Assembly (NCBI RefSeq): GCF_019239235.1
Contig: NZ_JAAZTS010000011.1
Location: 1-64,000 of the forward strand
Direction: 5' to 3'
DNA length: 64,000 nt
DNA from: Caecibacteroides pullorum
Lineage (GTDB): Bacteria > Bacteroidota > Bacteroidia > Bacteroidales > Bacteroidaceae
Shown: one piece after another, positions 1,681 through 63,902 of the stretch
How the letters are laid out: each line of letters starts with the position of its first letter
Position numbering within the stretch: the stretch's first letter is position 1
Program-made: the position numbers and the translations under genes
The notes under the pieces: generated by a model
Seen by the model: the letters and a program-made list of their open reading frames with translations, nothing else
Told to the model about the DNA's origin: nothing
The model's database searches: none

Positions 1681-1701
1681 GGTATCTAAGTTTTATTTCA
1701 G

Positions 1702-1731: not shown

Positions 1732-1816
1732 AAATCAAATTGCTTTTTTATCGGGGTTCTACCATACTCCAGATAGTTAATTTTCACAAAAAACAAGAAG
1801 GGTGAGAAACTTTTGC

Positions 1817-1824: not shown

Positions 1825-1959
1825 TAAAACGTCTGAAAATACAGAAAACTGACCGGTATTGTTATCCCGACCATAACGCCGGAATGTATCTGATCTTTCC
1901 AGATAATGGGGTATGAAAAACTATATGTACAAATCTATTAAATTTATAAACCGAAGTCT

Positions 1960-3663: not shown

Positions 3664-3688
3664 CTCAAAGTCTAAATACCAATAAACT

Positions 3689-6679: not shown

Positions 6680-6712
6680 CCGAAGGATTCCATCGAATAA
6701 AAACCATTTCAC

Positions 6713-9700
6713 ATGAAAAACAGAATACTAACCCTGACAACCTGTGTCTTCTGCCTGGCTCCGCAAGGATTTGCCCAGCATGTATCCGTTCAGGAACAGA
6801 CAGAGACCCTGAAAACCTATAAATTCTCTGATCCGAATCCGGTAGCAACTCCTTCCAACCTGTTCTATCCCTACTTCCGGTTTGACGGATTTACAGCCAA
6901 AGGTGAAAACCGGGAATGGAAAACAGTTGAACTGGAGAATGATTACATCAAAGTTACCCTCTTTCCGGAAGTAGGCGGAAAGATATGGGGAGCCGTGGAC
7001 AAAACCACCGGTAAAGACTTTATCTACAAGAACGGAGTAGCCAAATTCCGTGATATCGCCATGAGAGGTCCCTGGACCTCCGGCGGTATCGAGTTCAATT
7101 TCGGTATCATCGGACACGCTCCCACCTCCAGCACTCCTGTGGATTATCTGGTCAGACAAAAAGATGACGGCAGTGTAAGCTGCTACCTGTTCTCCTACGA
7201 ATGGCTGACACGCACGGCCTGGACTGTGGAAGTCAATCTGCCTAAGGACAAAGCTTACTTTACAACCCACACCACCTGGTACAACCAGTCCGATGTTGAT
7301 CAGCCTTATTACCAGTGGATGAATGCCGGATACCGGGTCGGCCAGAAAGCTGAGTTCTGTTATCCGGGCGACCATCTCATCGGACACGGGGGTGAGGTTT
7401 CCTCGTTCCCGGTAGATGAAAACAACCGGAACATCGGATGGTATGACTCCAATAATTTCGGCAATTCCAAGTCTTACCACGTTCTGGGATATTACAATGA
7501 CTATTACGGCATCTACTGGCACGGAGAAGATTTCGGGTCCATCCATCATTCCAATTTTGATGAGAAACTGGGTATGAAAATCTTCCTATGGGGACAGTCC
7601 CGTGAAGGAGGTATCTGGGAAGACCTGCTGACCGACCAGAACGGCCAGTACATCGAGCTGCAGTCCGGCCGAATGTTCAACCAGCCGGCTTCCAACAGTG
7701 CCTACACCCCTTACAAACATCATTCGTTCGCACCTCAGATGACGGATGCATGGACCGAATACTGGTATCCCGTCAAAGGAATCAAAGGAGTGTCCAAGGC
7801 CAGCACCATCGGAGCCTTGCACGTAATGCGTGAGGCTGACGGACTGAAACTGGCCTTTTCACCGCTGGAAAAACTGTCAACCGATCTCAAGATCTACAAA
7901 GACCAGCAGCTGGTGGAAACACTGTCTCTGACTACCAACGTCATGGAACCGGTCACCCTGACTTCCCTGAAAGGAAAAGACATCCCCGAAGGCCACCTGA
8001 AAGTAGTCATCGGAGACAATCTCCTGATCTACTCGGATAATCCGGAAAACTTCGACCTGAAGCGCCCCATGACCCTTCCCGAAGATTTCAACTGGAATTC
8101 TGCTTTCGGACTTTATACCCAGGGAGAACAATGGTTGAACCAAAAAGTATGGGACAAGGCAGAAAGCTACCTGAAGAAATCCCTGGAACAGGATGCCAAC
8201 TTCTCACCGGCTCTGGTACGCCTTTCCTCCCTCTATTACCGGGAAGGCAGATATCAGGAAATGATTCCCCTGCTGGAACGGGCTTTGGGGCTGAATACCT
8301 ATGACGGAGAAGCCAACTACCTGTACGGACTGGCCAACCGCATGCTGGGCAATGCAACAGAAGCGAAGGCTGCTTTTGCTATCGCTACTTTTTCAGCTTC
8401 AGTGCGCACTGCCGCTTACGAACAGCTGGGCGAAATGTATGCTTGCGACCGGAACTGGACCAAAGCCGAACAATATGCAAAGAAGAGTCTGACTTACAAT
8501 GCCATGAACCTTCATGCCCGTCAGTTGCTGACAATGATTTACAGAAAGACTGGCAGAACAGAGCTGGCGAAAGAACAGATCAGCCAGGTGCTGGATCAGC
8601 TGCCTTTGTATCATGGTCTCCGCTTTGAAGAAGCCTGGCTGTCCGGAAACCATACTCCGGAACAACTTGCTTCATTCGCTTCCCAGATCCGTAATGAACT
8701 GCCGGCCGAAACTTATCTGGAACTGGCCGAATGGTATGAAAGAACCGGATGTGAGGAAGAAGCCATCGCCCTGCTCACCTGTGCCGGAAATCATCCGATA
8801 GTCCTGTATCAGAAAGCCTGGCTGCAGAGCAGACAAGGAGCAGCTCGGGAAGCCCGGGAAACACTGGAACTGGCCAATGCCCAGTCACCGGATTATATCT
8901 TCCCCTTCCGTCCGGAAACCCTGAAATACCTGGATTGGGCCGAATCGCAGTCAGCCAACTGGAAAATCAACTATTACCAGGGACTGATATACTGGACCAA
9001 CCAGCAGAAGGACAAGGCACTCCAGGAAATGAACCTGTGTGACAATGCAGGCTATGCACCTCTGTATCTGTCGCGCGCACAGCTCAAGGAAGGCGAAGCC
9101 AGACTGGCAGACCTGATGAAAGCCGAGCAGGCAGATCCTTCATGGAGAGCCGGCATGGCCTTGCTGAACTATTATATTGCAGAAAGTAACTGGGACAAGG
9201 TAGTAGAAACAGGCAAAAAGTACATCCAGAAATATCCGGACAACTATTACATTGGACTGAAATATGCCAACGGTCTGTGCGAAACCAGACAGTATGGTTC
9301 CTGCATTTCCCTGTTGAGCAAAATGCAAGTGTTACCGAACGAAGGTTCCTATGCCGGCAGAGCCGTATACCGTGCTGCCAACCTCTACCAGGCAATGGAT
9401 CAGTTCAGCAAACACCGGTATGATGCAGCCCTGAAATCCATAAAAGCCTCCGAAGAATGGCCGGAAAACCTGGGTGTAGGAAAACCTTACGACGATCAGA
9501 TAGACAAACGGCTGGAAGATTATCTGGAAGCCAAGGTATATGAAAAGAAAGGAGAAACGGCAAAAGCCCAAACCCTGCTGGACAAAGTATCTTCCCATCC
9601 TACTTCCACCCGCAATTTCGAATCAGCGCATTTGCTGACGGCACTGGCTTTGCGTGACACAGGCAAACAGGCAGAAGCCGACAAGCTGGTTGCCTCCTGG

Positions 9701-9886
9701 AAAAAGGATTTCCCGGAAAGCAAACCGGCACAATGGTGTACTGCCGTTTATCATGGAAACATGGACCAGGCTAGAGAACTGTTGAGCAGCAGATATGCTT
9801 CCAACGAGACTACTCCCTGGGAAACCGGCTACCGGGATACAAACTTTGACCTGATTGCAAGATTATTCTCGGGAGTACCCAAGTGA
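6713..9886 (+). CDS. DUF5107 domain protein with C-terminal TPR repeats
   Basis: Exported 1057-residue protein (signal peptide ending near AQ at residue 22). The N-terminal 380 residues resemble the DUF5107 fold, a galactose-mutarotase-like beta-sandwich; the stretch around residues 75-150, including LFPEVGGKIWGAVDK, is characteristic. From about residue 480 onward it is alpha-helical with tetratricopeptide-like repeats (for example WDKAESYLKKSLEQDANFSP). Family members occur in polysaccharide-utilisation regions and are suspected of binding or processing carbohydrate; no catalytic residue can be named here. Last gene of the operon with the M60 protease. Confidence 0.75.
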   Translation: MKNRILTLTTCVFCLAPQGFAQHVSVQEQTETLKTYKFSDPNPVATPSNLFYPYFRFDGFTAKGENREWKTVELENDYIKVTLFPEVGGKIWGAVDKTTGKDFIYKNGVAKFRDIAMRGPWTSGGIEFNFGIIGHAPTSSTPVDYLVRQKDDGSVSCYLFSYEWLTRTAWTVEVNLPKDKAYFTTHTTWYNQSDVDQPYYQWMNAGYRVGQKAEFCYPGDHLIGHGGEVSSFPVDENNRNIGWYDSNNFGNSKSYHVLGYYNDYYGIYWHGEDFGSIHHSNFDEKLGMKIFLWGQSREGGIWEDLLTDQNGQYIELQSGRMFNQPASNSAYTPYKHHSFAPQMTDAWTEYWYPVKGIKGVSKASTIGALHVMREADGLKLAFSPLEKLSTDLKIYKDQQLVETLSLTTNVMEPVTLTSLKGKDIPEGHLKVVIGDNLLIYSDNPENFDLKRPMTLPEDFNWNSAFGLYTQGEQWLNQKVWDKAESYLKKSLEQDANFSPALVRLSSLYYREGRYQEMIPLLERALGLNTYDGEANYLYGLANRMLGNATEAKAAFAIATFSASVRTAAYEQLGEMYACDRNWTKAEQYAKKSLTYNAMNLHARQLLTMIYRKTGRTELAKEQISQVLDQLPLYHGLRFEEAWLSGNHTPEQLASFASQIRNELPAETYLELAEWYERTGCEEEAIALLTCAGNHPIVLYQKAWLQSRQGAAREARETLELANAQSPDYIFPFRPETLKYLDWAESQSANWKINYYQGLIYWTNQQKDKALQEMNLCDNAGYAPLYLSRAQLKEGEARLADLMKAEQADPSWRAGMALLNYYIAESNWDKVVETGKKYIQKYPDNYYIGLKYANGLCETRQYGSCISLLSKMQVLPNEGSYAGRAVYRAANLYQAMDQFSKHRYDAALKSIKASEEWPENLGVGKPYDDQIDKRLEDYLEAKVYEKKGETAKAQTLLDKVSSHPTSTRNFESAHLLTALALRDTGKQAEADKLVASWKKDFPESKPAQWCTAVYHGNMDQARELLSSRYASNETTPWETGYRDTNFDLIARLFSGVPK

Positions 9887-9897
9887 CACTTTACGCT

Positions 9898-9960
9898 GCT
9901 AAAGTAGGTGTTTAGCGGGCTAAAGTGCATGTTTAGCGCGCCAAAGTAGGTGTTTAGGAA
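9898..9960. repeat. Three tandem 21-bp repeats
   Basis: Three 21-base units start at 9898, 9919 and 9940. The first two begin GCTAAAGT and end TTTAGCG, so each can fold on itself (GCTAAA with TTTAGC); the third is diverged (GCCAAAGT...TTTAGG). They lie between the convergent DUF5107 gene and the dihydroorotate dehydrogenase-like gene. Similar 21-22 bp groups occur at 22544, 34474 and 52028. The 309-base gap holds this array, a second element at 10033 and a terminator. Confidence 0.85.
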
Positions 9961-10032
9961 ACGCAAAGAGGGACATGTGAAACTTCGGTTTTGCTTTCAC
10001 ACCGCCCGTTTTTTGAGAGACTATCCGTAAAG

Positions 10033-10086
10033 CCTTCACGCTTTCACATTATTGTAAGTTCTTGTTTTCAAGTATTTTATGGTGAA
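10033..10086 (+). repeat. 54-bp intergenic element, copy 1
   Basis: Starts CCTTCACGC, then TTCAC, and ends TTATGGTGAA. Another copy of exactly the same length lies at 52174-52227. The ends are well conserved, including inverted TTCAC/GTGAA, while the centre varies. More TTCAC/GTGAA words flank it on both sides (9976-10122). Function unknown. Confidence 0.6.
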
Positions 10087-10134
10087 GGATAGATTTCACA
10101 GGGAAGATAGTTGGTTTCACGGATGTTTTGGAAA

Positions 10135-10175
10135 AGAGAAAGAGGATAAAACCAACGGCTTTATCCTCTTTCTCT
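10135..10175 (-). terminator. Terminator after the dihydroorotate dehydrogenase-like gene
   Basis: Perfect 16-bp inverted repeat (AGAGAAAGAGGATAAA and its complement) with a 9-base loop. On the minus strand it follows the stop codon at 10196 by about 20 bases and leads into a T-rich stretch. It closes the DUF4494-yggS-dihydroorotate dehydrogenase operon. Confidence 0.8.
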
Positions 10176-10195
10176 ATATTGTCGCTAGATAATAC

Positions 10196-11176
10196 TTATT
10201 CGTGCTGTGCGAAATACTTCAGGAATTGCGTGCGTTCGAAAGTATTCACACCCTTTACGTCGCCTACGTTCAGTTTACCCTTGAACTGGGCGATGTTTTC
10301 CATGCCCTTGCTTGCCATCCATTCGGCCACGAACTTGTTGTATTCGTTAATGACGGCAGATGATTCTTTGTAAAGAACACTGCAAATTTCTACGGCGGAG
10401 GCTCCTGCCAGAATGGATTTTACAATGCCTTCAGCTGAGTGGATGCCACCTGAAATGGCATAATCTATCTTATTGACTGCTGCCGAAGCAATACCGGTCC
10501 AGCGAAGCGAGTTGGAGAGGTCGGCCTCATTGCTGAATACATCACCTGCCACCTGCGTCATCTTGTCGATATTGATATCCGGCTGGTAGAAGCGGTTGAA
10601 CAATACGACGGCCGCAGCTCCGTTGGCGTAAAGCTGGTCGATGAGGGCTACGGGATTCGTCAGATTGCTGCCCAGTTTCATGATAACGGGGATTTTGACC
10701 GTTTTCTTGATGTGACGCAGGATGTCAATGTGGCGCTGTTCAAAGCTACCATAGGTGTATTGTACATCAGTTTGTAAAGCTAGAATATTGATCTCCAGTG
10801 CGTCGGCTCCGGCTTCTTCGATCTGCTTGGCGAAGTCTGCCCATACGTCATCTTTATAGCAGTTGATGCTGGCGATAACGGGGATGTCGCACACCTTCTT
10901 GCTTTCACGTATCAGGTTGAGATATTCACCTAGTTTGTGGTGGAGGATGTAGACAGACAGTTTGTCTGCAGCTTCGGGTGACATGGAAGGATCGTCGTGT
11001 TGGTAGACTTCCATCATGATCTGCTCTTCAAAGAGAGACTTCAGTACGATAGCTCCTGCTCCTGCTTCGCAGAGTTTCTGGTTCTTGGCTGCGCTGTCTG
11101 TCAGACCTGAACTGCTGACGATAATGGGATTTCTAAGGGAAAGCCCGGCAAATGTTGTTTGTAACGTTGTTGCCAT
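10196..11176 (-). CDS. Dihydroorotate dehydrogenase-like flavoprotein
   Basis: A 326-residue TIM-barrel FMN protein of the dihydroorotate/dihydropyrimidine dehydrogenase superfamily. The start TTFAGLSLRNPIIVSSSGLT and the segment around IASINCYKDD are typical, as is a C-terminal phosphate-binding region with SGGIHSAEG. Whether it is the true pyrimidine-pathway PyrD is uncertain: no pyrimidine gene is nearby and family members of this kind are usually annotated only as PyrD-like. It ends a three-gene operon, 18 bases after the YggS gene. Cytoplasmic. Confidence 0.85.
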   Translation of the reverse strand: MATTLQTTFAGLSLRNPIIVSSSGLTDSAAKNQKLCEAGAGAIVLKSLFEEQIMMEVYQHDDPSMSPEAADKLSVYILHHKLGEYLNLIRESKKVCDIPVIASINCYKDDVWADFAKQIEEAGADALEINILALQTDVQYTYGSFEQRHIDILRHIKKTVKIPVIMKLGSNLTNPVALIDQLYANGAAAVVLFNRFYQPDINIDKMTQVAGDVFSNEADLSNSLRWTGIASAAVNKIDYAISGGIHSAEGIVKSILAGASAVEICSVLYKESSAVINEYNKFVAEWMASKGMENIAQFKGKLNVGDVKGVNTFERTQFLKYFAQHE

Positions 11177-11194
11177 GATGTTTTATTTTTTAGA

Positions 11195-11860
11195 TTAATA
11201 AATTCGTTCTCCGAAAATTTTGCTTCCTACACGTACCAGTGTGCTTCCTTCGGCAATGGCTTCGTGGTAGTCGTGAGACATGCCCATCGAAAGTTCGCAA
11301 AAAGCATCGTCGTCGGCAAACCATGTGGATTTTACTTCACGGAAGAAGTTGCTTAAGGAACGGAATTCCTCCTTGATTTGTTCGACGTTGTCCGTGTTGG
11401 TGGCCATGCCCATGAGCCCGCACAGACGGATGTGCTGCAACTGACGCCACTGGCCTTCGGCCAGCATCTGGCGGCATTCGTCGAAGCTGAAGCCGAATTT
11501 GGTCTCTTCGCGGGCGATGTGCAGTTGGAGCAGGCAGTTCACCCTGCGTCCGGCTTTGGCTGCTTGTTTGTCTACTTCTGCCAGGAGCTTGTAGGAGTCG
11601 ATGCCGTGAATCAGTGCTACGTAGGGCACGATGTATTTCACTTTGTTGGTCTGCAGGTGGCCGATGAAATGCCATTCAATGTCTTTCGGCAGACTTTCAT
11701 ATTTGGCCGTCATTTCCTGTACCTTGCTTTCGCCGAAGATACGTTGTCCTGCCCGATAAGCTTCTTCGATGGCTTCGTTCGGGTGGAACTTCGATACGGC
11801 TACCAGCCGTACGCCTTCGGGCAGTTCGTTCCGTATTTCTTTGATGCGTTCTCCAATCAT
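11195..11860 (-). CDS. YggS family pyridoxal-phosphate homeostasis protein
   Basis: Cytoplasmic PLP-binding protein of the YggS/PROSC family, which buffers pyridoxal phosphate and affects amino-acid pools and has no known catalysis. Lys24 in LVAVSKFHP is the expected Schiff-base lysine. The signatures WHFIGHLQTNK and the C-terminal LSMGMSHDYHEAIAEGST are hallmark motifs. Length (221 aa) is normal. It sits between the DUF4494 gene (15-base gap) and the dihydroorotate dehydrogenase-like gene (18-base gap), consistent with a single transcript. Confidence 0.95.
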   Translation of the reverse strand: MIGERIKEIRNELPEGVRLVAVSKFHPNEAIEEAYRAGQRIFGESKVQEMTAKYESLPKDIEWHFIGHLQTNKVKYIVPYVALIHGIDSYKLLAEVDKQAAKAGRRVNCLLQLHIAREETKFGFSFDECRQMLAEGQWRQLQHIRLCGLMGMATNTDNVEQIKEEFRSLSNFFREVKSTWFADDDAFCELSMGMSHDYHEAIAEGSTLVRVGSKIFGERIY

Positions 11861-11875
11861 ATTTTCTCTTGTTTT

Positions 11876-12340
11876 TTATACTTCCGGCTTGTCGTCGGGC
11901 TCAGCGCTGTAAGGATACACGTCCATAAGTGGCGTTTCGGCCACAGAGGCTATCTGATAATCGGCCATGGTGCCCTTCATCCCTTCATCCAGTTTCTTTA
12001 CGGCATCGCGCAAATCGGCGGCTTGTACCAATACTTGCGTAGATGTTTTTTTCTCTGCACCGCTCTTTTCATCGAGTGTGATAAAAATGAGCTTGCATTT
12101 GAACCAGCGGTCGGCAGCTTCTTCATCGCAGGGGAAAAGTTCGCTATAGTTGGCACGCTTGATGTCGGCTACAGTGAACTCACCACTGATGAAAGGAGTA
12201 ATCTCTTCGATGATACGTGCTTCGGCTTCGGTAAAGCTGAGTGCATCTACCAGATAGGGCTCCGTAACCTTCTTGTTCATGCCGTTTTCCATTGTTTTTT
12301 CATATCGAATCTTGCATTCGAACCATGTATGCATTGCCAT
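11876..12340 (-). CDS. DUF4494 family protein
   Basis: Small (154 aa) cytoplasmic protein with no signal peptide, of a Bacteroidota family with no assigned role. It begins with a WFECKIRYEK segment, and a similar WFKCKLIFIT segment recurs near residue 80, suggesting an internal duplication of a small beta-alpha unit. It is the first gene of an operon with yggS and a dihydroorotate dehydrogenase-like gene, and diverges from tpx. The family name is recalled from sequence look and I cannot give a function. Confidence 0.75.
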   Translation of the reverse strand: MAMHTWFECKIRYEKTMENGMNKKVTEPYLVDALSFTEAEARIIEEITPFISGEFTVADIKRANYSELFPCDEEAADRWFKCKLIFITLDEKSGAEKKTSTQVLVQAADLRDAVKKLDEGMKGTMADYQIASVAETPLMDVYPYSAEPDDKPEV

Positions 12341-12552
12341 AATTTTCAGTCTTTTAGTTTTCTATCAATAAAAATTGGTCGGTTAATTCCCCACAAAGAT
12401 AAAACTTTTCAAATGAAGAATGCAAGATAAGGTTTAAGATTTGCGCAGAGTGTCTGATTTTCTGTTATAGTTATTGTTGTGGACGGGTGGAATAAGAACG
12501 GGACGAAACATTCTTTTAACATGATTGAAATAGGTGCTTCCAAACTTTTTCT

Positions 12553-52401: not shown

Positions 52402-55400
52402 ATGCTAACTCCTTTTGCGAATAGACTGGAATCTATTATCAATGAAAAACGGAATGTGATTGAACGTCCTATTTTTGTATTCGTAGGTTTAACACCTTAT
52501 GTGGATTTCACTCCCTATAAAGACAACATTGTGCATGTTGAAACCTTTGATAAGGAAGGGAATACATCGTTATTCAACGAGAAATGGTTTACAAAAGTAT
52601 TTATAAAATTATCGCAATCAACGGATTTTTGTATTTTATCACATCAGCAATATTCATATCTGATAGAATACCTAAACCCAGACTTGTATAAGGATAGATT
52701 GGTTGTGGTTTATGACAATCTGCGTTCATTATTGCCCATCTCAAAAGAGTTATATATGGAAGAGAATTCTGGCGATGGATTGGAGGTCCGTTCAGACGAA
52801 ATGCCAGTATATCATGCGGAACAGTTTAAGATTGGAGAGAATTATTTCTATTCTTTGAAAGGATTTGATGAAGAAAATATGACCGTTCCCTTTTTTACAG
52901 AAGTGAAAAAGCTTGATCCTTCACCCTATTCGTATTCAAGTGAAGAAGTGATAGATATTGCATCCAATCCTTATTCATTGGATTTCTTTGTCAATGAATG
53001 TATCAGGACATCCAATTTCAAAAAAAGAATGGTGGTAAAACTTTCAGCCAAGAATGTGTTGGGCACCGCTATAGAAAGAAATATGGAGTATCTGAATGCT
53101 CTATTATCAGTTTATGGTGGAGGTATATATAGAGCATCATTGGAGAATGTTACTAAGGACTATGCTCCGTCTAATGAAGCGATTACTTTATTGAAAAAAT
53201 ATTGGGGAGAGTCTGCATCGTTCCGCAATATAAATGTGTATGAAAATCCAGAGATGGGAAAAGCTACAATGCCTATATCACAGGGGCTTATAATAGATAC
53301 CATCATTAATGAGTACAAGACAGCAAAAAGTGGTAATATACCTCGTGACATATTCATCACCGCACCAACCGGGGCTGGTAAGTCACTTATTTTTCAGATA
53401 CCTGCATTCTATGCAGCAGAACAGGGAGATGTAACTATCGTTGTATCCCCACTCAAGGCTCTTATGAATGATCAGGTTATGAATCTGAAGAATGAAAGAG
53501 AGTATTCAAGGGTAGAGTTTATCAACAGCGATCTTAATCTGATGGATCGTGACAGGATTATAGACAGGTGCAAAAGGAGGGAAATAGATATCTTATATTT
53601 ATCACCGGAATTATTACTCTCATACGCATTGAGTTATTTTATTGGAGATAGAAGATTAGGCCTTCTTATCATAGACGAAGCTCATCTTATCACTACATGG
53701 GGCAGGGACTTTAGAGTAGATTATTGGTTTCTTGGAAATTATCTGAATAAGATTCGCAAGTATTCAGCTTCCTCATTCCCTTTGGTCGCATTAACGGCTA
53801 CTGCAGTATATGGCGGTGTTAATGATATGGTGTTTGACAGTATAAACTCGTTAAACATGCATGACCCGCATAAATTCATAGGTGAGGTTCGTAGGACAGA
53901 TATAGAATTTGTGATTGACACTCATGACAATTATAGAGATGGTTCATTCGAGAATAACAAGATTGAAGAAACTGGTAATTTCATAAAAGGAGTTCGTAAG
54001 CTTGATTTGAAGACAATTGTCTATGCTCCCTATACACGTCATATAGCTAAGATAGAAGATAAGGTAGCTGAGATGGGGATTGATGGGGTAGTTTCGTTTC
54101 ATGGCTCAATGATAAATGACAACCAGAGAGCTGCCTATGAGAGATTTAAGAATAATCAGGCTAAAGTAATGGTTGCAACCAAAGCTTTTGGGATGGGGGT
54201 GGATATTCCGGATATTCAGGTTGTATATCATCATGCCCCTTCCGGTTTGTTACCGGACTATGTACAGGAGATAGGGCGTGTCGCTCGTAAAAAAGGGATG
54301 AAGGGATACGCAGCACTAACATTTTCACCTTCTGATCTGAGGTATAGCAAGCAGTTATTTGGCATGTCTTCCATAAAGACTTTTCAGTTGCAGGAGGTTC
54401 TCAAAAAAATAATGCGTCATTTTATGACAAACGGTAGAAAAAGAAATATGCTTTTGTCTTCAAATGACTTTGGATATATTTTTGAAACAGGCGACGGACT
54501 TGATCAAAAGGTTTCTACCGCATTGATGATGATAGAGAAGGACTATCTGCTTAAAACACGTTTTAATGTTTTGATAGCAAGGCCCAAAAGGGTGTTTACC
54601 TGCGTCTATGCACGTACAAACGAGGTCGGAATACAGAGACTTAAAGAGAGATATGGAGATTGTTTCAGTGTGATAAGTAGATCTGAAAAGACAGATTCAT
54701 ACAATATTGAGCTGAACCTCGATAAAATCTGGTCGTCACATTTTAACGAATACAGTTTCCCTCAGATAAAAAGAGATTTTTATAATAAGAGGTTTCTTGA
54801 ATCGGAAGGAATAAGCCTATCTCCTCTTATAAAAGTAACGCACAGGATCAACACAGAGTTTACTGTTGTGCTCAATACGATAAATGAAGTTATTTCTGCT
54901 ATTAAAGCAGCTTTTGTCCAGTTAAGACAAAGAGGTGGATTCTTTACAGAGCAGGAATTCAGAAGTATAGTAAAGTCTCTTTTGCTCTCAAAATATGACA
55001 TAGACAAAATAATATCATTTATTCTATCAACATATTCGGGAAGACTTATCGGTTGCAATACATTGGAAGCCGACTCTTTCCTGCAGAGAAGGGTTGTCGG
55101 GTTCAACGAAGAATATCAGGTGTTTTCGACAAACTATGAATCTCAATTTGCCACATTAATCAAGATTCTAACCTCTATGTTTGATGAGAATGCATCGAAA
55201 AGGGCAATCAGATATGTTTCTGCTGGTGAAGTTATGCTTAAAAACCATATCAGACTCGGTTCATTGATTGAGATACTCGGAATAGGCAGTTTTGAAACAC
55301 AAGGCGGTGATGAACCTAAAATCTTCGTTCGTATAAACGATCCACGGAGGATAAAAAAAGATTCTGAAAGTAAGATTTACACTAATTTCATTCTTGAGGG

Positions 55401-56070
55401 TGTTAAGAACAGACATAAAACAAGTTGTGATATATATGAGCATTTTTTCCTTAACTATCTGAGTAATGAACGAAGATGGGATTTTATAGAGGATTTCTTC
55501 TTGGGTGCATCATACGAGGAACTTATAGAACGTTATCCTGGAGGTACGCAGAATCACATAGATATCCTCTCGTATTTGGAAGAAAACGCAATAGTAGCAG
55601 ATGGAGAGAATGTCGTATCGCCGAATAATAATTCGATAATAGACGGTTTTTTACCGAGAAAAGGAGGATATTATATGCCAGACAGTCTTCTTACAATCGG
55701 TAACAAGACAATGAAGATTAAGAAGTGGATAACAGAGAATCCTGTGTCATTGCATAGGACTGTGGTGGAATATGAGTTGATGATAGACAAATCATATTAT
55801 AAGGTTCTTATGTCGAGATTGCAAAACTGTCATTTTGCATATTACAGAGATTTTATGGGACTGAAGTTACTTATTGACTATCCGGGATATGATGGACGAG
55901 TGCAAGCCTCCGTTCCTTACAATGATGACCCTGTCAAGTTTTATAAGTGGTGGAAGAAGAATTCAGATAGAGTTACACTTAGCTATAAGGACCAGTTGCT
56001 GTTATTTATGGCTGTAGATAAAAAGGCTCCTAAAGCTCTGACCAAATTGCATAAAGCGATGATAGCATGA
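52402..56070 (+). CDS. Large RecQ-type DEAH helicase, probable defence protein
   Basis: A 1222-residue cytoplasmic protein. A RecQ-like helicase core lies in the middle: Walker A APTGAGKSLIF near 322, IIDEAHLITTWGRDFR near 424-440, ALTATA near 472, and a helicase C domain (about 530-645) with ATKAFGMGVDIPD and the arginine-finger motif QEIGRVARK. The first 300 residues and the last 575 match nothing I recognise. Ordinary RecQ is about 600 residues with a zinc domain and HRDC, which I do not see. I start at ATG 52402, not the TTG at 52396. AT-rich codon use like the adjacent type I restriction genes, to which it is convergent. Confidence 0.8.
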   Translation: MLTPFANRLESIINEKRNVIERPIFVFVGLTPYVDFTPYKDNIVHVETFDKEGNTSLFNEKWFTKVFIKLSQSTDFCILSHQQYSYLIEYLNPDLYKDRLVVVYDNLRSLLPISKELYMEENSGDGLEVRSDEMPVYHAEQFKIGENYFYSLKGFDEENMTVPFFTEVKKLDPSPYSYSSEEVIDIASNPYSLDFFVNECIRTSNFKKRMVVKLSAKNVLGTAIERNMEYLNALLSVYGGGIYRASLENVTKDYAPSNEAITLLKKYWGESASFRNINVYENPEMGKATMPISQGLIIDTIINEYKTAKSGNIPRDIFITAPTGAGKSLIFQIPAFYAAEQGDVTIVVSPLKALMNDQVMNLKNEREYSRVEFINSDLNLMDRDRIIDRCKRREIDILYLSPELLLSYALSYFIGDRRLGLLIIDEAHLITTWGRDFRVDYWFLGNYLNKIRKYSASSFPLVALTATAVYGGVNDMVFDSINSLNMHDPHKFIGEVRRTDIEFVIDTHDNYRDGSFENNKIEETGNFIKGVRKLDLKTIVYAPYTRHIAKIEDKVAEMGIDGVVSFHGSMINDNQRAAYERFKNNQAKVMVATKAFGMGVDIPDIQVVYHHAPSGLLPDYVQEIGRVARKKGMKGYAALTFSPSDLRYSKQLFGMSSIKTFQLQEVLKKIMRHFMTNGRKRNMLLSSNDFGYIFETGDGLDQKVSTALMMIEKDYLLKTRFNVLIARPKRVFTCVYARTNEVGIQRLKERYGDCFSVISRSEKTDSYNIELNLDKIWSSHFNEYSFPQIKRDFYNKRFLESEGISLSPLIKVTHRINTEFTVVLNTINEVISAIKAAFVQLRQRGGFFTEQEFRSIVKSLLLSKYDIDKIISFILSTYSGRLIGCNTLEADSFLQRRVVGFNEEYQVFSTNYESQFATLIKILTSMFDENASKRAIRYVSAGEVMLKNHIRLGSLIEILGIGSFETQGGDEPKIFVRINDPRRIKKDSESKIYTNFILEGVKNRHKTSCDIYEHFFLNYLSNERRWDFIEDFFLGASYEELIERYPGGTQNHIDILSYLEENAIVADGENVVSPNNNSIIDGFLPRKGGYYMPDSLLTIGNKTMKIKKWITENPVSLHRTVVEYELMIDKSYYKVLMSRLQNCHFAYYRDFMGLKLLIDYPGYDGRVQASVPYNDDPVKFYKWWKKNSDRVTLSYKDQLLLFMAVDKKAPKALTKLHKAMIA

Positions 56071-56075
56071 TAAAG

Positions 56076-56119
56076 TTCAGGTCTGTTATTGGTGGTAACC
56101 AAAAAATAACAGACCTGAA
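56076..56119. terminator. Bidirectional terminator between the helicase gene and hsdR
   Basis: Perfect 14-bp stem (TTCAGGTCTGTTAT and complement), with TTTTGTTGTTGTTTT on the right side. Convergent genes meet here. Confidence 0.88.
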
Positions 56120-56158
56120 TTTTGTTGTTGTTTTATCAGGATATTAAAGACATATACC

Positions 56159-59100
56159 TTAAGCTACAATAATAGCATCATGTAGATCCTCCACATATTT
56201 CTTAACACCTATGAAATCCTGTCCAAAAACGTCGGACCATTCAAATTCATCGAATGGAGGTTCATTAACAAGAGTTTCAAAGCTGATATCGCCATGGTCA
56301 GAAACATAGGTAATAATAGTTTTCAGGTATTCCTCCTGTAGTGAAGTAAAGTTGTTATCTGAAAAGAACTGTGACAGTTTCGCCATTGCAGCTTTCCTGT
56401 CTATACCAATTTGGGAGCGTATAAAGGCTGCTACATTTCTATTGAATGACATTTTGCAGTTCTGTAGATAGTTTATGTATTCATCTTCAGTGCCAAGATC
56501 AGTCCACAATATTCTCTCCAATTCACTAATGTCTTTTTGGTTGAGCTGTTCAATATTCCTTATTTTAACGAGTACGGGTAATTCAGCATTCTGGTTTAAA
56601 AACTCCTCTACTCTTTGTTTATAAGAGGCTCTGTATGGTTGGATATTAACAGAAGATTTTTCTTCTATTATATCCTTTATATTCAATATAAAATCACGGC
56701 TTTCACTATCGATGATAAATTGTACCAGGTCTCTTATTTCCTTTCGGACGTATTCAAGTCTGTTTAAGGTAATATCATTCCAGAAAGCAGGTACAGAAAT
56801 TTCTTTAATCAGATCCATCTTAACCTGAACTTGTGGTATGGCAGCTTTCTCCTGAAGACTGATACATATATTTTGAACCTTTCTTATATAATTACCTGCA
56901 TTTATTGTAGAATCAAGCATAGATAACTGAATATAGAGCATGATGGCATCAAACTTTTTGGCAGTTTCATTGTCTTTTTCAGGTATAACAAGAGGAGCTA
57001 CTTTATCCTTCAAGTCCAATACATCAGTAGCAGAAAGAACTATCCAATTCTCTTTTTTCATGAATTTATCCACCACATCAATATTTTGTCTGACAGATAT
57101 ATGCTTCGTATTCAATTTGCCAACTTGAGAAATGAGAATATCCTTTATTTCATCATGAAGTTTCTTTGCCCCCTCGTCACTTTGATAGTTGACATGTTGG
57201 AGAGCGAAAGCTATATCAACCCTCAGTCCAAAGAGTTTTTCAGATAACGTAACCTGTGGTAGGGCTTCGTTTCCTCTTGGATTCTCGTCAAAGTATTCAA
57301 AGTTTCCGCACCAGTCGAAAATATAGAAGGTTTTCTTATCCTCACCGATGTCGAAAATATCCTTACTCAGTCTTGTTCCTCTACCTATCATCTGCCAGAA
57401 CTTGATATAAGAATAAACTTTCTTGAAAAACACAAGGTTGAGTATATCAGGAACATCGATGCCAGTGTCAAGCATATCTACACTGACCGCAATCTGAGGC
57501 ATTTTGTTCCTTTCCTCAAAGCAGTTTATCAGGGTCTGTGAGTAGTTTACTGTATTATCTATGAGTACACAGAAGTCCGGACCAAGTTCAGGATATAAAA
57601 CATTAAATCTTTTCACTATCTGAATGGCATGTTTATGGTTATAGGCAAAGATTATGGTTTTACCTATAACATCTCCACTTTGTACCTTCAGACCATTATT
57701 CATAAGATCTTGAAGCACCTTATCAATGGTATCTATGTTAAAGATATATTTGAAAATCTCATTGCTGTTTATATCCCGATGATAATCTGAGTCTGGATTA
57801 AGGTCATTTTTTGCTTTCTCATATTCCCAGACTTCTTCCAGCTGCTTTTTTTCCTCATTAGACAGACTGTTATATTTGATGCCTTCCCTAAGTCTTTGTG
57901 TGGTTCTGGAAATAGTAGTATAATCCACAAGGAAACCATCATTTACTGCTTCCTTAAGTTCATACGAGAAATTGGGTTCTCCGGTTTCAAGGTCAAAGAC
58001 ATCGTATGTACTTTTATCAACCTGATCTCTCGGTGTTGCAGTCAGACCAACAAGAAGAGAATCAAAGTAGTCAAAGATAGCCGTATATTTACCAAAAATA
58101 GAACGGTGTGCTTCGTCTATGATGATAAGGTCAAAACGTCCTATAGAAAACAGTTTTGATTCCGTATCGATGTAGTTTATCATAGTTTGGTAAGTACTGA
58201 ACATGATACGAGCATTCATGTCTGGCTCCTTATTCTCACTAAGTACTGTGACTGTAGCTGAAGGAAGGAGTTTGGTATAGTTCTTAGCAGCCTGATTAAC
58301 CAAAGCTGTTCTGTCTGCCAAGAAAAGGATATTCTTTACCCATCCATTCTTCATCAGGACATCAGAAAGTGATATGGAAACTCTTGTCTTTCCTGTTCCG
58401 GTGGCCATGACAAGCAAACCTTTTCGATGGAAGGTATTGAAGTGTTCGCATATAGCCTTTATCCCTCGTTTCTGATATTCACGGTCGGTTATATTCTCAT
58501 TTACCGAGAGGTCTGTTATTTTACCTCTTCCTCTTCTCTGAATAAGAAGTTCCAGTTCACTCTCTGTATGAAATCCAAGAAGTTCCCTGTCAGGATAACC
58601 AAGACCGTCAATAATGAAAGTCTTATAACCGTTGGAATAGTAGATGACTGGTTTTACACCATATTGTTTTTCAAGACATCCGGCATAAAGAATCGCCTGT
58701 TGTCTTCCTACTTTCGGATCTTTTGTAGTCCTCTTGGCTTCAATCACAGCAAGCGGTTTACCATTATTACCGAAAAGTACATAATCCACATATCCTTTGT
58801 TCTGAGAGTTTGGCATTCCCTGAACCTCTGTTTCTATACATGCTTTACTTGAAACTATAGCACCTTTCTTATCCAATACTTCCCAGCCAGCTTCTTCAAG
58901 CATTATATCTATGAAGTATTTTCTTGTTTCAGCCTCAGACAAAGAAGATTCCATGTTTACATCAACAGGATTACTTACTTTCTCTGGAGCAATATCCTCT
59001 ATTATCTTATCTGGGATCTCTGTTTCGGTCGGAGTGGAAACAAAGAGTTCATGTTTGTCCGGTATGAGGTCTCTATTGAATGGTGCTAGTTCTTTCAGTA

Positions 59101-59476
59101 TCCCCAACCTAAGAAGGATGAAACCTACAACATTGTAAAGATTAAGAAGAGCAAAGAATGATTCTCCACCCTTCACATTTCCTGTATGAGCACTTTTATT
59201 ACCAACCTTTCGGATATAGTGAGCAGCCATCATAATCCTGTCATTCTCTATGAAATCCGTAAAAGGTTGTCCGGTCATTAGTTCATAAAGAGTGTCGGTT
59301 TTCTTAAGTTCTATACCTTTAAGCTTGTATATAGCTTTTACAATCCATTCCAGACCTCTTCTACAATTTATTGCAGAATTATTGCGGTCTGTTTTCTGGG
59401 TATCTTCAGCAACCTTACAAAACCTGTATAAGTTACTCAAGGCTTCTATATCTTTAAGGTAATCAAAATTGCTCAT
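56159..59476 (-). CDS. hsdR: Type I restriction enzyme R subunit HsdR
   Basis: Motor-nuclease subunit of a type I restriction system (1105 residues). The N-terminal 130 residues are a helical DUF4145-like domain. The PD-(D/E)xK nuclease follows: VDYVLFGNNGKPLAVIEAKR (about 228-247). The helicase has Walker A ATGTGKTRVS near 355, IIDEAHRS near 450, GLTATPRD and a C-terminal motor half with IGRGTRLSKD. The tail (about 760-1105) is the EcoEI-type helical HsdM-docking region. It is 12 bases after hsdS. Confidence 0.95.
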   Translation of the reverse strand: MSNFDYLKDIEALSNLYRFCKVAEDTQKTDRNNSAINCRRGLEWIVKAIYKLKGIELKKTDTLYELMTGQPFTDFIENDRIMMAAHYIRKVGNKSAHTGNVKGGESFFALLNLYNVVGFILLRLGILKELAPFNRDLIPDKHELFVSTPTETEIPDKIIEDIAPEKVSNPVDVNMESSLSEAETRKYFIDIMLEEAGWEVLDKKGAIVSSKACIETEVQGMPNSQNKGYVDYVLFGNNGKPLAVIEAKRTTKDPKVGRQQAILYAGCLEKQYGVKPVIYYSNGYKTFIIDGLGYPDRELLGFHTESELELLIQRRGRGKITDLSVNENITDREYQKRGIKAICEHFNTFHRKGLLVMATGTGKTRVSISLSDVLMKNGWVKNILFLADRTALVNQAAKNYTKLLPSATVTVLSENKEPDMNARIMFSTYQTMINYIDTESKLFSIGRFDLIIIDEAHRSIFGKYTAIFDYFDSLLVGLTATPRDQVDKSTYDVFDLETGEPNFSYELKEAVNDGFLVDYTTISRTTQRLREGIKYNSLSNEEKKQLEEVWEYEKAKNDLNPDSDYHRDINSNEIFKYIFNIDTIDKVLQDLMNNGLKVQSGDVIGKTIIFAYNHKHAIQIVKRFNVLYPELGPDFCVLIDNTVNYSQTLINCFEERNKMPQIAVSVDMLDTGIDVPDILNLVFFKKVYSYIKFWQMIGRGTRLSKDIFDIGEDKKTFYIFDWCGNFEYFDENPRGNEALPQVTLSEKLFGLRVDIAFALQHVNYQSDEGAKKLHDEIKDILISQVGKLNTKHISVRQNIDVVDKFMKKENWIVLSATDVLDLKDKVAPLVIPEKDNETAKKFDAIMLYIQLSMLDSTINAGNYIRKVQNICISLQEKAAIPQVQVKMDLIKEISVPAFWNDITLNRLEYVRKEIRDLVQFIIDSESRDFILNIKDIIEEKSSVNIQPYRASYKQRVEEFLNQNAELPVLVKIRNIEQLNQKDISELERILWTDLGTEDEYINYLQNCKMSFNRNVAAFIRSQIGIDRKAAMAKLSQFFSDNNFTSLQEEYLKTIITYVSDHGDISFETLVNEPPFDEFEWSDVFGQDFIGVKKYVEDLHDAIIVA

Positions 59477-59488: not shown

Positions 59489-60622
59489 TTAGTTAAAGTA
59501 ATAATCCATTCTACTATTGAACAGGTCTTCCGTTTCTTTTATGGATTTTTTTATAAGCTCCTTCTGCTTTTCTATTGCTTCTATCTTTGATGCAAACTCT
59601 TGTTGGAGAGAGAGAGGTGGAAGAGTTATAAATGTATTACGTATAATACTTTGTGATATGTTAGGTTGTCCACCTCCTATAGCAGCAGATAAAAAAACAT
59701 TCCTATGTTCCTTCAGGTTATAATATAAATATATTTCTGACAAGACTTTGTCGTTTATAAAAATACCGCATACAGCTTGATTTGTAGCCATTTCATTCTT
59801 TATAATACCAACTTGTCCAACAGTAGCACCATACATAGCTATCACTACTGTATTAACAGGAAAAATCTTAGCATTTGAATTATTTAAAGCAGAATCGGAT
59901 ATTTTAATTTCGGTATCGTATAAATACATATCTTTAATTTCTCCACTTCTTAACCATAATATATTACCACTAAAATATTCCTTAACACTCTTAGGTGGTG
60001 TTCCGCCAGAGCTTGTCTTACATATATCACCAAGTTTCTTCACATTCCACCCCTTTTCATTCTCTATCGGATCTCCAAACATATCATAGAAAATGGACTG
60101 TGCCAGATTATCCAGTTCATTAAGCTGTTTTTTCTGTTTCTCAATGATAGAGGTAAGACAGTTAAGCTCTTCCACGATTTGTCCTTGGGTTTGGAGAGGG
60201 GGATAATATATTTTAGTATTATCAAAATCCTTTTTTACTATATGTTTCATAGTTGCACCATGAGCATTTCTAACCATATGGTCAATTTTACTACTCACTG
60301 CATACTTGAAATAGTATTTGCTTATCTCCAATTTATCAAAAACAACTTTAAATATATGCTGATTAAGATAAGCTGTATTTTTCAACCATTCATAAACACC
60401 CAAGCTGGCAGACCAGGATATAAGAATATCCCCATTATTTACCAAATATTTACTCGGTATATTATCATTATTACAATAATTATATTGAGCATCATCATCA
60501 TTCAAATTCTGAATGCGAATAATTGGTATTCCTGTATCGCTCCATTGATTAGGCTTAAAAGCATAGCCATTAATATATGTCGCAACATCACCCAACTTCT
60601 TAACTTCCCAATCCTTCCTCAT
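59489..60622 (-). CDS. hsdS: Type I restriction specificity subunit HsdS
   Basis: DNA-recognition subunit of 377 residues with two target-recognition halves, each opening with a like phrase (WEVKKLGDV at residue 5; WNVKKLGDI near 193), and two long conserved helices, one central (IEKQKKQLNELDNLAQ) and one at the C-terminus. Both half-sites should be present, giving a bipartite target. The ATG follows the hsdM stop by one base. No second hsdS copy or recombinase is in view, so phase-variation by inversion is not supported here. Confidence 0.94.
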   Translation of the reverse strand: MRKDWEVKKLGDVATYINGYAFKPNQWSDTGIPIIRIQNLNDDDAQYNYCNNDNIPSKYLVNNGDILISWSASLGVYEWLKNTAYLNQHIFKVVFDKLEISKYYFKYAVSSKIDHMVRNAHGATMKHIVKKDFDNTKIYYPPLQTQGQIVEELNCLTSIIEKQKKQLNELDNLAQSIFYDMFGDPIENEKGWNVKKLGDICKTSSGGTPPKSVKEYFSGNILWLRSGEIKDMYLYDTEIKISDSALNNSNAKIFPVNTVVIAMYGATVGQVGIIKNEMATNQAVCGIFINDKVLSEIYLYYNLKEHRNVFLSAAIGGGQPNISQSIIRNTFITLPPLSLQQEFASKIEAIEKQKELIKKSIKETEDLFNSRMDYYFN

Positions 60623-60623: not shown

Positions 60624-62117
60624 CTACATAAATTTAGAACGAAACTCTGTCATGGCTTCATTAATTTCAGACTGTAGCTTTTCTATTCTCTCAAAGATAA
60701 CTTCTGGGGCATCATACTCCACCTTAACACGTTCTATCTCCTTGTACTTGTTGATAGAAAGGTCATAGTCATTATCCCTAATTTCCTCAACAGGAACCAA
60801 GAATGATTTATCCTTTCTTGTTCTGCTTTCTTCTGCCTCTAAGTTCTTGAATCTTGCTATAATGTCAGGGATATCATTTTCTTCAACTACATTTCTCTTC
60901 TGGTCAAGAGAATATCCGTCAGCAGTCATATCATAGAACCAAACCTTATCTGTTCCCCCTGCTCCTGTCTTTGTGAAGATAAGGATAGCAGTAGAAACTC
61001 CTGAATATGGTTGGAATACACCTGAAGGCATAGATATAACAGCTTGAAGTCTATGTTTTTCAACCAGTTCTTTTCTGATAGCCTTATGAGCCGTTGAATT
61101 TCCGAACAATACACCATCTGGTACAATACTTGCACATCTTCCCCCAAGTTGCAGTATTCTTGTAAACAGGGAAACAAACAAAAGCTCTGTCTTCTTAGTC
61201 TTAGTAATAGCAAGAAGAGATTTGCTTGTATCATCATAATCTATACTACCAGCAAAAGGAGGATTTGCAAGACAAAGGGTATATTTATTTTCATCCGTAT
61301 TACTTGAAGAAAGACTGTCCTGATATTTCACATTAGGGGCATCAACACCATGAAGCATTAAGTTCATAGCACCGATTCTTAACATGGTAGCATCAGTATC
61401 AAAACCATTGAACATTGTAGTTTTGTAATGTTCCTGATTCTCCTTCTTTACAAGTTCATCCTTATAGTTTTCTGTAATATACTTCGCACTCTCGACAATA
61501 AAGCCAGCACTACCCATGGCAGGGTCACATATCGTATCTTTCAGAGTTGGTTCCATAAGTTCAACCATCATTCTGATAATATGTCTCGGAGTTCTGAACT
61601 GACCATTTGTACCTGAAGCAGCCATTTTACCAAGGATATATTCATAAGTATCTCCCATGGTGTCACGGTTATTCATATCAAGTCCTTCTACACCATCCAC
61701 TACCTTGGTGAGAGTTCTCTCATTCTGAATCAGGAATACAGCATTCTCCATAAAGCGGCTATAGGCAGAAGACTTACCGCTATTGAGGTTCTTTATAAAT
61801 GGAAATACATCATTCCTGATTGTATTATACATTCTGGTAGCATCATAGTTCTTGAATACTGACCATCGTAAAGATTCGAAGGGTACATCCTTATCTGTTT
61901 CAGGATTATGCCATGAGCCTTCACCAAAAACAGGGTCTTTGACCCTTACACCTAGAAGGGCAGCATTCGCCTCTTTTACCAACTGTGCATCGTCTAGCAT
62001 TTTCATAAAGAACAGATAAGTCATCTGTTCAAGGATTGTTATAGAATTTGTGATACCTCCAGTCCAGAAAGTATCCCAAATATTGTCTATCTGAGTCTTA
62101 ATTTCTCCAGTAATCAT
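60624..62117 (-). CDS. hsdM: Type I DNA methyltransferase HsdM
   Basis: Adenine N6 methyltransferase (497 residues) protecting host DNA. The N-terminal helical domain (about 1-140) is of the HsdM type; the catalytic part has the AdoMet motif DPAMGSAGF (near 196) and the NPPF motif (near 283), the mark of adenine methylases. First gene of the hsdM-hsdS-hsdR operon. Confidence 0.96.
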   Translation of the reverse strand: MITGEIKTQIDNIWDTFWTGGITNSITILEQMTYLFFMKMLDDAQLVKEANAALLGVRVKDPVFGEGSWHNPETDKDVPFESLRWSVFKNYDATRMYNTIRNDVFPFIKNLNSGKSSAYSRFMENAVFLIQNERTLTKVVDGVEGLDMNNRDTMGDTYEYILGKMAASGTNGQFRTPRHIIRMMVELMEPTLKDTICDPAMGSAGFIVESAKYITENYKDELVKKENQEHYKTTMFNGFDTDATMLRIGAMNLMLHGVDAPNVKYQDSLSSSNTDENKYTLCLANPPFAGSIDYDDTSKSLLAITKTKKTELLFVSLFTRILQLGGRCASIVPDGVLFGNSTAHKAIRKELVEKHRLQAVISMPSGVFQPYSGVSTAILIFTKTGAGGTDKVWFYDMTADGYSLDQKRNVVEENDIPDIIARFKNLEAEESRTRKDKSFLVPVEEIRDNDYDLSINKYKEIERVKVEYDAPEVIFERIEKLQSEINEAMTEFRSKFM

Positions 62118-62247: not shown

Positions 62248-63309
62248 TTATTGCTTCCGTTTCCGCATAGTGGAACTCAAATCCTCCTGTACCTCTTTCA
62301 AACTATTTCCAATGCCATAATGCGTACCGTTTTTCACTACATAAAACTGGTATTCACTATCTATGCTATCAGAGTCAGTTATCTCCCGATACACGTCGAG
62401 GATTGGTGAAATAACAATCCAATAATCGTCGTGCAACTCAATCACTTTATACAAATTGTCCTTGACATACATGTATCCGCTGTCCTTCCAAATTAGATGG
62501 GGTAGGTCGGCCGGAAGCTCTGTTTTTACATTCGAAGCGTTTGCCTGATTTTCATCCATCATAATCTTTCCTCCTACAATCAGGTTGTCGGGAAGTTCTT
62601 GAATAGGGGTGGACCTGATATCTATATTTCCGCCAACGATCAATTTGTCAGGAAGTTCTGTCAGGCCCGACTCACTCAAGTCCAGATCTCCATTGACGAC
62701 CAGACCCTCAGGCAAAGATTTCAGATTCTTACAATTGGATAAATATATATTTCCGCCAATGCGGATATTTTTCGGCAACGTTTCTATGTCGCTGCAATAT
62801 GCTTCCAAATCATTTCCTATGATGATGTTTTCCGGCAATTGACGTATGGCTGTCTTTGCTATATTCAGATTGCCATAAACGGACTTAATGTCGGGAAGTG
62901 ATTCAAGATTCTTACAGCCCTCCAGGAATAAATCTCCTGCAAAGACCGTACAGGCATCTGGAATTTTCTTTATATTGGGACAATCTATCAATACTAATTC
63001 TTTCCAGCAAGATGAATGAACGGGTAAAGTGTCTATTTCCGACTGGAATAGATATAATTGCTCCAGTTGAAGCGATTCCGGCAAACGGACTATGTTGGGG
63101 CATTGCTGTATGGAAAGAAATTTGATGTCCAGATCCTCTGGTAATGATTTAAGTGAAAAGCAATCTTTTAAAGTCAGTCCATATAGTTTGAGTTGAGATG
63201 GCAAACTGTCTGTAACATCACCATTCAGGGTAATACACTCCATACCATTGTCAAGCATTGTACTTGAAACGCCGGCTATACTGTATAAATCTTCTTTCGT
63301 TATCATCAT
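62248..63309 (-). CDS. Bacterial leucine-rich-repeat protein
   Basis: A 353-residue protein with no signal peptide. From about residue 30 to 270 it is made of LRR-like units of roughly 20-23 residues (such as GDLDLSESGLTELPDKLIVG and GNIDIRSTPIQELPDNLIVG), which should stack as a solenoid for protein binding. The last 80 residues form a separate mixed domain with a YQFYVVKNGTHYGIG segment. M2 is an alternative start. It lies 11 bases after the preceding 193-residue gene, probably in the same transcript. Role unknown; similar proteins occur in Bacteroides mobile regions. Confidence 0.8.
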   Translation of the reverse strand: MMITKEDLYSIAGVSSTMLDNGMECITLNGDVTDSLPSQLKLYGLTLKDCFSLKSLPEDLDIKFLSIQQCPNIVRLPESLQLEQLYLFQSEIDTLPVHSSCWKELVLIDCPNIKKIPDACTVFAGDLFLEGCKNLESLPDIKSVYGNLNIAKTAIRQLPENIIIGNDLEAYCSDIETLPKNIRIGGNIYLSNCKNLKSLPEGLVVNGDLDLSESGLTELPDKLIVGGNIDIRSTPIQELPDNLIVGGKIMMDENQANASNVKTELPADLPHLIWKDSGYMYVKDNLYKVIELHDDYWIVISPILDVYREITDSDSIDSEYQFYVVKNGTHYGIGNSLKEVQEDLSSTMRKRKQ

Positions 63310-63320: not shown

Positions 63321-63902
63321 TTAACACATCGATTTTCCTGCTATAATTTCCCGAATCTTCTCTTTTATTTTGCTTTCTGTTGAATTTGGCGGTAAGTAGT
63401 CGGCCAACTTGATATATACGGTATTGATCACATCCTTAATGCGATTTTCCGCTTCTTCAATTTGAGGTTTAAGCCCCCAATAATCTATAATCTGTTCGTT
63501 GATGTTAGGCCAGTCAACCCTCGTTATTTCGCCTGGTGTGTAGAACAGTGACAAGGGGACATTTATGTCGGCGGTTGTATATTCTACTTTAATGGTAGCG
63601 GTATTGTTCAAACATAAGGATCCGCCATTGACCGCCATACAGATTTGCTTCATTTTGCAGTCCTTTACAAACAATCTGAACCACCTGTAGGAAACGGAGA
63701 AACTGCCAGTACCCTCTGTTTCGGCTTCAAACGAGTATTCTCCTCCAAGGACTCTCGCTGTGACAAGACCCGGAGTTGCGACGCTTAAAGATAGTTTGTA
63801 AGCGTCCGAGTACTTTGCATGTTTCTTATATCCTGCAAATAATGCCTTTACTGCGGTGCTAAGAGATTTTTTGGTTGCTCTTATGGTAATAGTGTCATTC
63901 AT
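63321..63902 (-). CDS. Unrecognised 193-residue protein, possible sliding-clamp-like domain
   Basis: I do not recognise the family. Residues about 5-112 have a helix (KKSLSTAVKALFAG) followed by alternating strands, with GTGSFSVSYRWFRLFVKDC then ICMAVNGGSLCL, an order and spacing that recalls one domain of the bacterial beta clamp. The C-terminal 60 residues are helical and charged. No signal peptide or membrane helix. It starts just before the LRR gene and shares its AT-richer codon use. Confidence 0.65.
   Translation of the reverse strand: MNDTITIRATKKSLSTAVKALFAGYKKHAKYSDAYKLSLSVATPGLVTARVLGGEYSFEAETEGTGSFSVSYRWFRLFVKDCKMKQICMAVNGGSLCLNNTATIKVEYTTADINVPLSLFYTPGEITRVDWPNINEQIIDYWGLKPQIEEAENRIKDVINTVYIKLADYLPPNSTESKIKEKIREIIAGKSMC

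Follow-up and report, generated by a model that had tools for sequence, protein, structure and literature searches.

The DNA analysed here is a stretch of 64,000 nt from Caecibacteroides pullorum (Bacteroidota; contig NZ_JAAZTS010000011.1), referred to as the window, and the subject is a gene for a 1222-residue helicase that lies between miaA and the hsdMSR genes of a type I restriction system (Table 1; helicase coordinates are counted from the first letter of the window). The reading frame starts with ATG, with a TTG 6 nt upstream, and contains no internal stop; the opposite strand is interrupted by many stops throughout. A first-pass annotation, made from the letters alone, had described the product as a RecQ-type helicase, and this is borne out by the open frame and by matches in Pfam to DEAD (residues 315-468) and Helicase_C (residues 533-630), accompanied by overlapping weaker helicase and ATPase matches. 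The placing of the gene at the edge of an AT-rich accessory segment likewise proved correct: MiaA, HsdR, HsdS and HsdM were all identified, and the GC content drops from 0.45-0.53 (38-52 kb) to 0.35-0.39 at the helicase segment. Taken with the loss of homology to the miaA flank of a relative and with the placement of the protein on the family tree (below), this drop indicates that the gene was acquired and forms the left edge of the segment. In a second relative (locus L178) the sequence adjoining miaA matches contig positions 85111-90695 of the window's own contig, so the region has also been rearranged. On the right-hand side a tRNA-Ser gene is found at contig positions 67499-67584, past genes for WYL and DUF2130 proteins.

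Table 1. Features of the helicase locus, in window coordinates
Feature	Coordinates	Strand	Basis or remark
Long 'tail' form of the C3a193 family, RecQ-clade helicase, 1222 residues	52402..56070	+	Open reading frame, Pfam, PADLOC
N-terminal domain, residues 1-257, alpha/beta fold, no Walker A	52402..53172	+	Predicted structure, conservation, profile scan
RecQ-type superfamily 2 (SF2) helicase core, residues 315-650	53344..54351	+	Pfam, closest solved proteins, motif alignment
C-terminal region, residues 636-1045, two predicted winged helices	54307..55536	+	AlphaFold2, VIA-align, cysteine check
C-terminal tail, residues 1046-1222	55537..56067	+	One Bacteroidota clade only
Left edge of accessory segment	52250..52402	.	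Homology to miaA flank of relative L179 stops at 52250
Long hairpin between convergent helicase and hsdR genes, likely two-way terminator	56066..56130	.	-32.7 kcal/mol, z -8.1
hsdR, type I restriction subunit	56159..59476	-	Neighbour, not shown to be part
hsdS, specificity subunit	59489..60622	-	Neighbour
hsdM, methyltransferase subunit	60624..62117	-	Neighbour

The helicase gene runs towards hsdR with the hairpin between them, and it therefore looks like a transcription unit of its own. Convergent orientation and hairpin speak against co-transcription with the hsd genes in the window, and the helicase probably does not belong to the neighbouring type I enzyme as a subunit.

The helicase core is that of a RecQ protein: the closest solved proteins, over residues 315-653, are RecQ, and an SF2 core with motifs 0 to VI is present. 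In a motif alignment of 40 rows (36 long and four short forms of the family), K327, D425, E426, H428, Q622, R626 and R629 are identical in every row, and since hardly any catalytic residue of motifs 0, I, II, III, V or VI varies across the alignment, the motor should be active. The stretch from W433 to G445, with 9 of its 13 positions identical in the same alignment, is what we take to be the 'aromatic-rich' stretch known from work on RecQ. The likeness to E. coli RecQ, RECQL1, RECQL5, BLM and WRN is one of core and motifs; it is in the flanking domains that the proteins differ. The usual RecQ tail domains, which the first-pass annotation had already noted as missing, are indeed wanting: Pfam at E<=1, under filters that drop most matches above 0.1, gave nothing outside residues ~294-631, and specifically no RecQ zinc, RQC or HRDC domain. 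At the aligned columns 630-759, the set of four zinc cysteines kept by the three true RecQs of the window's genome is absent from every one of the 40 family rows. The window protein also falls short of both NCBIfam cut-offs for RecQ (216.1 against 640.2 bits, and 197 against 219.8 bits).

The first 300 and last 575 residues had been thought to match no family. This stands for Pfam and falls for PADLOC, where profile PDLC01089 (C3a193, 'poss. alt. Cas3') matches residues 51-1037 over profile positions 33-982 of 983, at 9.9e-160. The same profile matches another family member, L026 (1.9e-174), and a shorter paralogue in the window's genome (2.6e-137). The family is thus known already, as a profile under a CRISPR label; in the open-access literature searched, no description of this family was found, judged by title or abstract start. 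The C3a names presumably go back to a survey by Shah et al. (2019) of accessory genes in type III CRISPR loci. The window protein differs from what the label implies in having a tail beyond the end of the profile, no Cas3 HD nuclease in Pfam and, by a crude detector, no CRISPR array in the window. DpdF, of the Dpd 7-deazaguanine system, has a similar RecQ-like core (150.8 bits), but this match is confined to the core and does not reach the cut-off of 550 bits, and no Dpd protein is among the matches listed for the five proteins encoded downstream; the CRISPR-related matches listed for these five are weak only (Cas4 at 5.7e-4 in HsdR; CARF at 0.038).

The N-terminal domain is predicted by AlphaFold2 (residues 1-262) to have an alpha/beta fold, with fair confidence (pLDDT 81, pTM 0.81). 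Across the 36 long forms only G29 and P112 attain 90% identity, which makes a catalytic site in this domain unlikely. A profile of the domain found matches in 3 of 218 genomes, each inside a helicase of the C3a193-type family. Among the nearest solved folds are RecA-like parts of SF2 helicases such as HsdR and HamB, a resemblance that is weak (Z 6.0 or less). An origin of the domain by internal duplication was considered and found to be unsupported, profile comparison with the protein's own RecA domains giving a probability of <1%. The best match in a profile search of the PDB had an E-value of only 0.5, and Foldseek returned no match at E<=0.001 for either the N-terminal or the C-terminal model.

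The last 575 residues consist of two parts, one shared as far as residue ~1045 with the 809-residue paralogue, the other a tail of 177 residues. For residues 636-1222 AlphaFold2 gave a model with pLDDT 83 and pTM 0.58, in which VIA-align picks out a CRP-type winged helix made up of separated pieces within residues 656-992 (model 21-357; Z 9.2 over 79 residues, root-mean-square deviation 2.6) and a second winged helix at residues 816-928 (model ~181-293), whose Z of 6-7 is a level that may reflect a merely common arrangement. The two winged helices are predicted to stand where RecQ has its zinc and HRDC parts. Twenty-one positions of the C-terminal region are at least 90% identical in the 36 long forms; the polar ones among them, which include D645, K713, D714, H1005 and E1030, form no recognisable nuclease pattern. 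The tail, seen in one Bacteroidota clade only, is common to 11 rows that form a single branch of a quick tree (SH-aLRT 100); in one of these loci (L110) it is encoded in another frame, and in genome G336 (L111) the gene is broken by the ends of two contigs, the second of which carries the tail. With a tail profile, 2 of 218 genomes gave matches, and in each the match came from a gene of the C3a193-type family. Against PDB profiles the tail gave two matches to repeat proteins, at ~0.001 over 24 residues; no stretch passed alone, and these matches were not used.

The 809-residue paralogue has the same core and C-terminal region as the window protein, with 32% identity over residues 258-1045, and lacks the N-terminal domain and the tail. 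Among 301 genomes of the window's taxonomic family, 14 matched at 1e-60: the long form is found in two, G037 and the window's own genome (where both forms occur), and the other 12 have the short form only. The short form of ~810 residues without N-terminal domain (L002, L010-L021) thus occurs in 13 of the 301, twice with stops inside the match. One of these short-form loci (L017) has nearly the same beginning as the short-form locus of a Phocaeicola record (L194). At 1e-90, and with the window's own genome included, matches were found in 5 of 395 genomes drawn from the phylum, 9 of 395 from the class and 4 of 393 from the order, in draws that overlap. On the tree the window protein pairs with L138, from another family of the same order (51% identity, support 99), while L114, a copy from the window's own family, branches outside the other ten of the tail clade (support 82). 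A scan of genome contigs added at least 13 members among the 80 loci listed; the other 67, matching in the RecQ core, served as controls.

Mobile DNA was searched as well. Viral contigs gave no match with the window protein as lone query, and 10 loci with family alignments, three of which are true members (L117-L119); the other seven matched in the core only and were dropped. In one of the three true members (L119, positions 6543-12394, an environmental viral contig) the gene follows what by eye is a tape-measure-like tail gene, as if it were prophage cargo. No phage record matched the window protein at 1e-30; a Bacillota member used as query gave matches in five Listeria phage records, covering 29% of its length. 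Eight plasmid records were found: H1, H3, H4 and H8 were taken as members, H2 is a short form, and H5-H7, which match like H4, were left out of the set.

Restriction genes recur near the long form. Seven of the 36 long-form loci (the window, L023, L035, L038, L113, L117 and L146) carry hsd genes by profile, with profiles built partly from the same loci as were counted; L038 holds just a shortened hsdM and L117 just part of hsdR. A further locus, L037, was dropped from this set when its match to the HsdR query turned out to be to a type IV restriction protein. No hsd gene was found in the 67 RecQ control loci of similar length, which contain no Bacillota, so that the fair contrast is the one within Bacteroidota given below. 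A placement test that takes each genome's own hsdM count and assumes random placement could be applied to the 29 loci lying in whole genomes: hsdM is in the stretch in 5 of 29, where 0.28 would be expected (P 7e-6), in 4 of 28 against 0.27 expected when the window is left out (P 1.3e-4), and in 2 of 10 in Bacillota (P 0.005). On the tree the restriction neighbourhood requires six changes, and has thus been gained or lost repeatedly. The arrangements vary. In L113 the helicase gene lies between hsdS, from which it is separated by a 97-residue frame, and hsdR, which begins 3 nt after it, a gene order that would fit co-transcription. The helicase gene of L146 stops 154 nt short of hsdM and shares its strand. 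The L023 locus reads hsdM, hsdS, hsdS (reverse), recombinase, hsdS, hsdR, sigma factor, helicase, the helicase being co-directional with the hsd genes.

Other defence genes are also found nearby: ZorA and ZorB, by Zorya type II profiles, downstream of the hsd operon of L113 and 4 kb on from the helicase and hsdR (positions 2160-4438), AbiLi and AbiLii in L027, a NERD helicase in L118, PDC-S41 in L140, Cas13d and Cas1 with a CRISPR array in L036, the type IV restriction protein in L037, and PDC-S06 with a type IIG enzyme in L025. Altogether, the fetched stretch contains a known or candidate defence gene at 13 of the 36 loci, the scanned neighbours having been chosen by eye and the controls having had no equal scan. 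PADLOC at 1e-30 was run on immediate neighbours, 61 proteins for the family (best 25 of 53 families) and 116 for the controls, with one edge fragment dropped (best 25 of 33). Among the matches listed, type I restriction families appear for family neighbours and not for control neighbours; the latter show dGTPase, DNA methyltransferases (one member each), ShosA, NERD with UvrD, and PsyrA, so the controls also carry some database matches. These distributions suggest that the long form, which occurs sporadically, is a mobile cargo gene with a preference for the company of defence genes. The first-pass suggestion of a defence link is upheld in part, by sporadic and island-borne occurrence, type I restriction genes above chance placement and other defence genes nearby; it is weakened by the existing PADLOC profile with its CRISPR label and by the position of the window gene outside the operon on which it converges. 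As to how often homologues lie near defence genes, the 13 loci of 36 leave a mainly core-genome context neither established nor excluded.

Upstream of hsdM in the window, two frames on the same strand (62248-63309 and 63321-63902) have no Pfam match at 0.01; the product of the first resembles leucine-rich-repeat effectors weakly in NCBIfam, with scores far under the cut-offs. At the right end of the window, on the strand of the hsd genes, lies a gene for a WYL/WCX regulator (contig 63939-64943; L116 39-1043). WYL proteins often control defence loci.

The explanation to which we tentatively lean is that the protein is a nuclease-less helper helicase, carried as island cargo, that acts on foreign DNA together with separate nucleases. 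We favour it because a motor and likely DNA-binding modules are combined with the absence of a recognised nuclease domain from the window protein in Pfam and with a mobile, defence-near distribution; the role in defence itself we infer from the neighbourhood alone. An ATP-driven motor of the RecQ clade, fitted with an N-terminal platform, two winged-helix modules and a clade-specific tail, would travel between genomes as cargo of defence islands. It may load onto the DNA of an invader at broken ends or at single-strand gaps, and would unwind or strip that DNA, presumably by 3'-to-5' translocation. Cutting would be left to other nucleases, here possibly HsdR or host exonucleases, so that the helicase would strengthen defence against phage without cutting on its own account.

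Several observations weigh against this explanation. The contrast is weaker within Bacteroidota, where hsd genes occur in 3 of 18 loci against 0 of 40 RecQ controls (P 0.026, the window counted), and hsdM placement there, with the window left out, gives 2 of 17 (P 0.01). Twenty-three of the 36 loci are without a recognised defence gene, part of the neighbours having been scanned, and many homologues, for example L026, L031, L032 and L142-L144, stand by eye among ordinary-looking chromosomal genes. Genes of islands meet one another anyway, and the neighbourhood is evidence of shared islands, not of cooperation. Moreover, the conserved polar residues of the C-terminal region may leave room for an active site of a kind that has not been recognised, and the 809-residue paralogue type stands in an ordinary-looking chromosomal place that suits repair as well as defence.

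Several of these points serve the main rival, according to which the protein is a helicase of DNA repair or recombination that rides in islands, and whose presence near restriction genes may help the cell to survive self-inflicted breaks or stalled forks. The RecQ core is what such a helicase would have, the short paralogue looks chromosomally settled in part of the genus and family, and many long-form loci lack a recognised defence neighbour. We nevertheless consider this account rather unlikely, if serious: the genome already has its three true RecQs, the long form occurs sporadically, with a tree at odds with taxonomy, and restriction genes are enriched around it.

An association with transcription comes next. 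In one Bacillota branch (SH-aLRT 99) a sigma-70 gene stands beside the helicase gene in all 11 loci, and in ten of them directly upstream on the same strand, with an overlap of up to 26 nt or a gap of at most 20 nt. In the remaining locus, on an Exiguobacterium plasmid (L022, positions 2-984; L191, positions 9-167), the sigma and helicase genes are transcribed divergently, the former extending over the start of the circular record; here an HNH endonuclease gene comes after the helicase gene. All nine sigma partners examined in Pfam matched regions 2 and 4, and that of L032 is 71% identical to that of L031. The best matches of one partner include RpoD genes. As a group the partners give no impression of a dedicated lineage, and on a plasmid record (L193) a close full-length match lies between frames that by eye are primase-like and RpoB-like. 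The best PADLOC match of the eight partners compared is the C-terminal part of MzaA, the sigma protein of the mzaABCDE system (described as a sigma factor in PMC9523054). The window helicase differs from that system in having no sigma partner in the 6.4 kb upstream.

The helicase might act on RNA polymerase or on the promoter DNA of an invader. The RpoD-like gene that adjoins it in all 11 loci of the branch favours such a role, and a precedent exists in human RECQL5, which binds Pol II (PMC12262184). Yet at 1e-3 no sigma match was found in the 6.4 kb upstream of the window gene or in 17 other Bacteroidota loci, nor upstream of L025, L029, L030 and L117-L119, where some flanks are short, and we regard the proposal as unlikely. 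A variant that joins it to immunity is slightly more doubtful still: the sigma and helicase module of Bacillota would recruit or divert RNA polymerase on invading DNA, and Bacteroidota would have a one-gene version beside restriction systems, in which the tail replaces the sigma factor.

The two remaining proposals are both very improbable. A CRISPR accessory or alternative Cas3 is what the PADLOC label implies, and in one locus (L036, positions 191-11691, a metagenome-assembled genome of Oscillospiraceae) genes for a sigma factor and a RecQ-like helicase are followed by two weak WYL/WCX matches, Cas13d, Cas1 and an 11-copy CRISPR array; but a crude detector found no array in the window or at contig positions 50900-90700, of the 35 other loci just one has a clear array (a call of three copies in L025 is doubtful), and the protein has no HD domain match in Pfam. 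The toxin of a toxin-antitoxin pair is suggested by a match of the core to PsyrT at 2.3e-50 (an entry of a toxin-antitoxin and defence database) and by the listing of RecQ as the PsyrTA toxin in PMC8790059, but the match is confined to the helicase core, and no PsyrA partner lies on either side, PsyrA being absent from the 15 families listed for HsdR and from the matches of MiaA at 1e-30.

RecQ-type motors recur in bacterial immunity, and the question here is what those without a nuclease contribute. With its recognisable architecture, its settled-looking paralogue and its sigma-paired Bacillota branch, the present family may offer a handle on the change from housekeeping to defence, and it raises the question whether an N-terminal domain and a tail, or else a sigma partner, could convert a housekeeping-type helicase into a defence protein.

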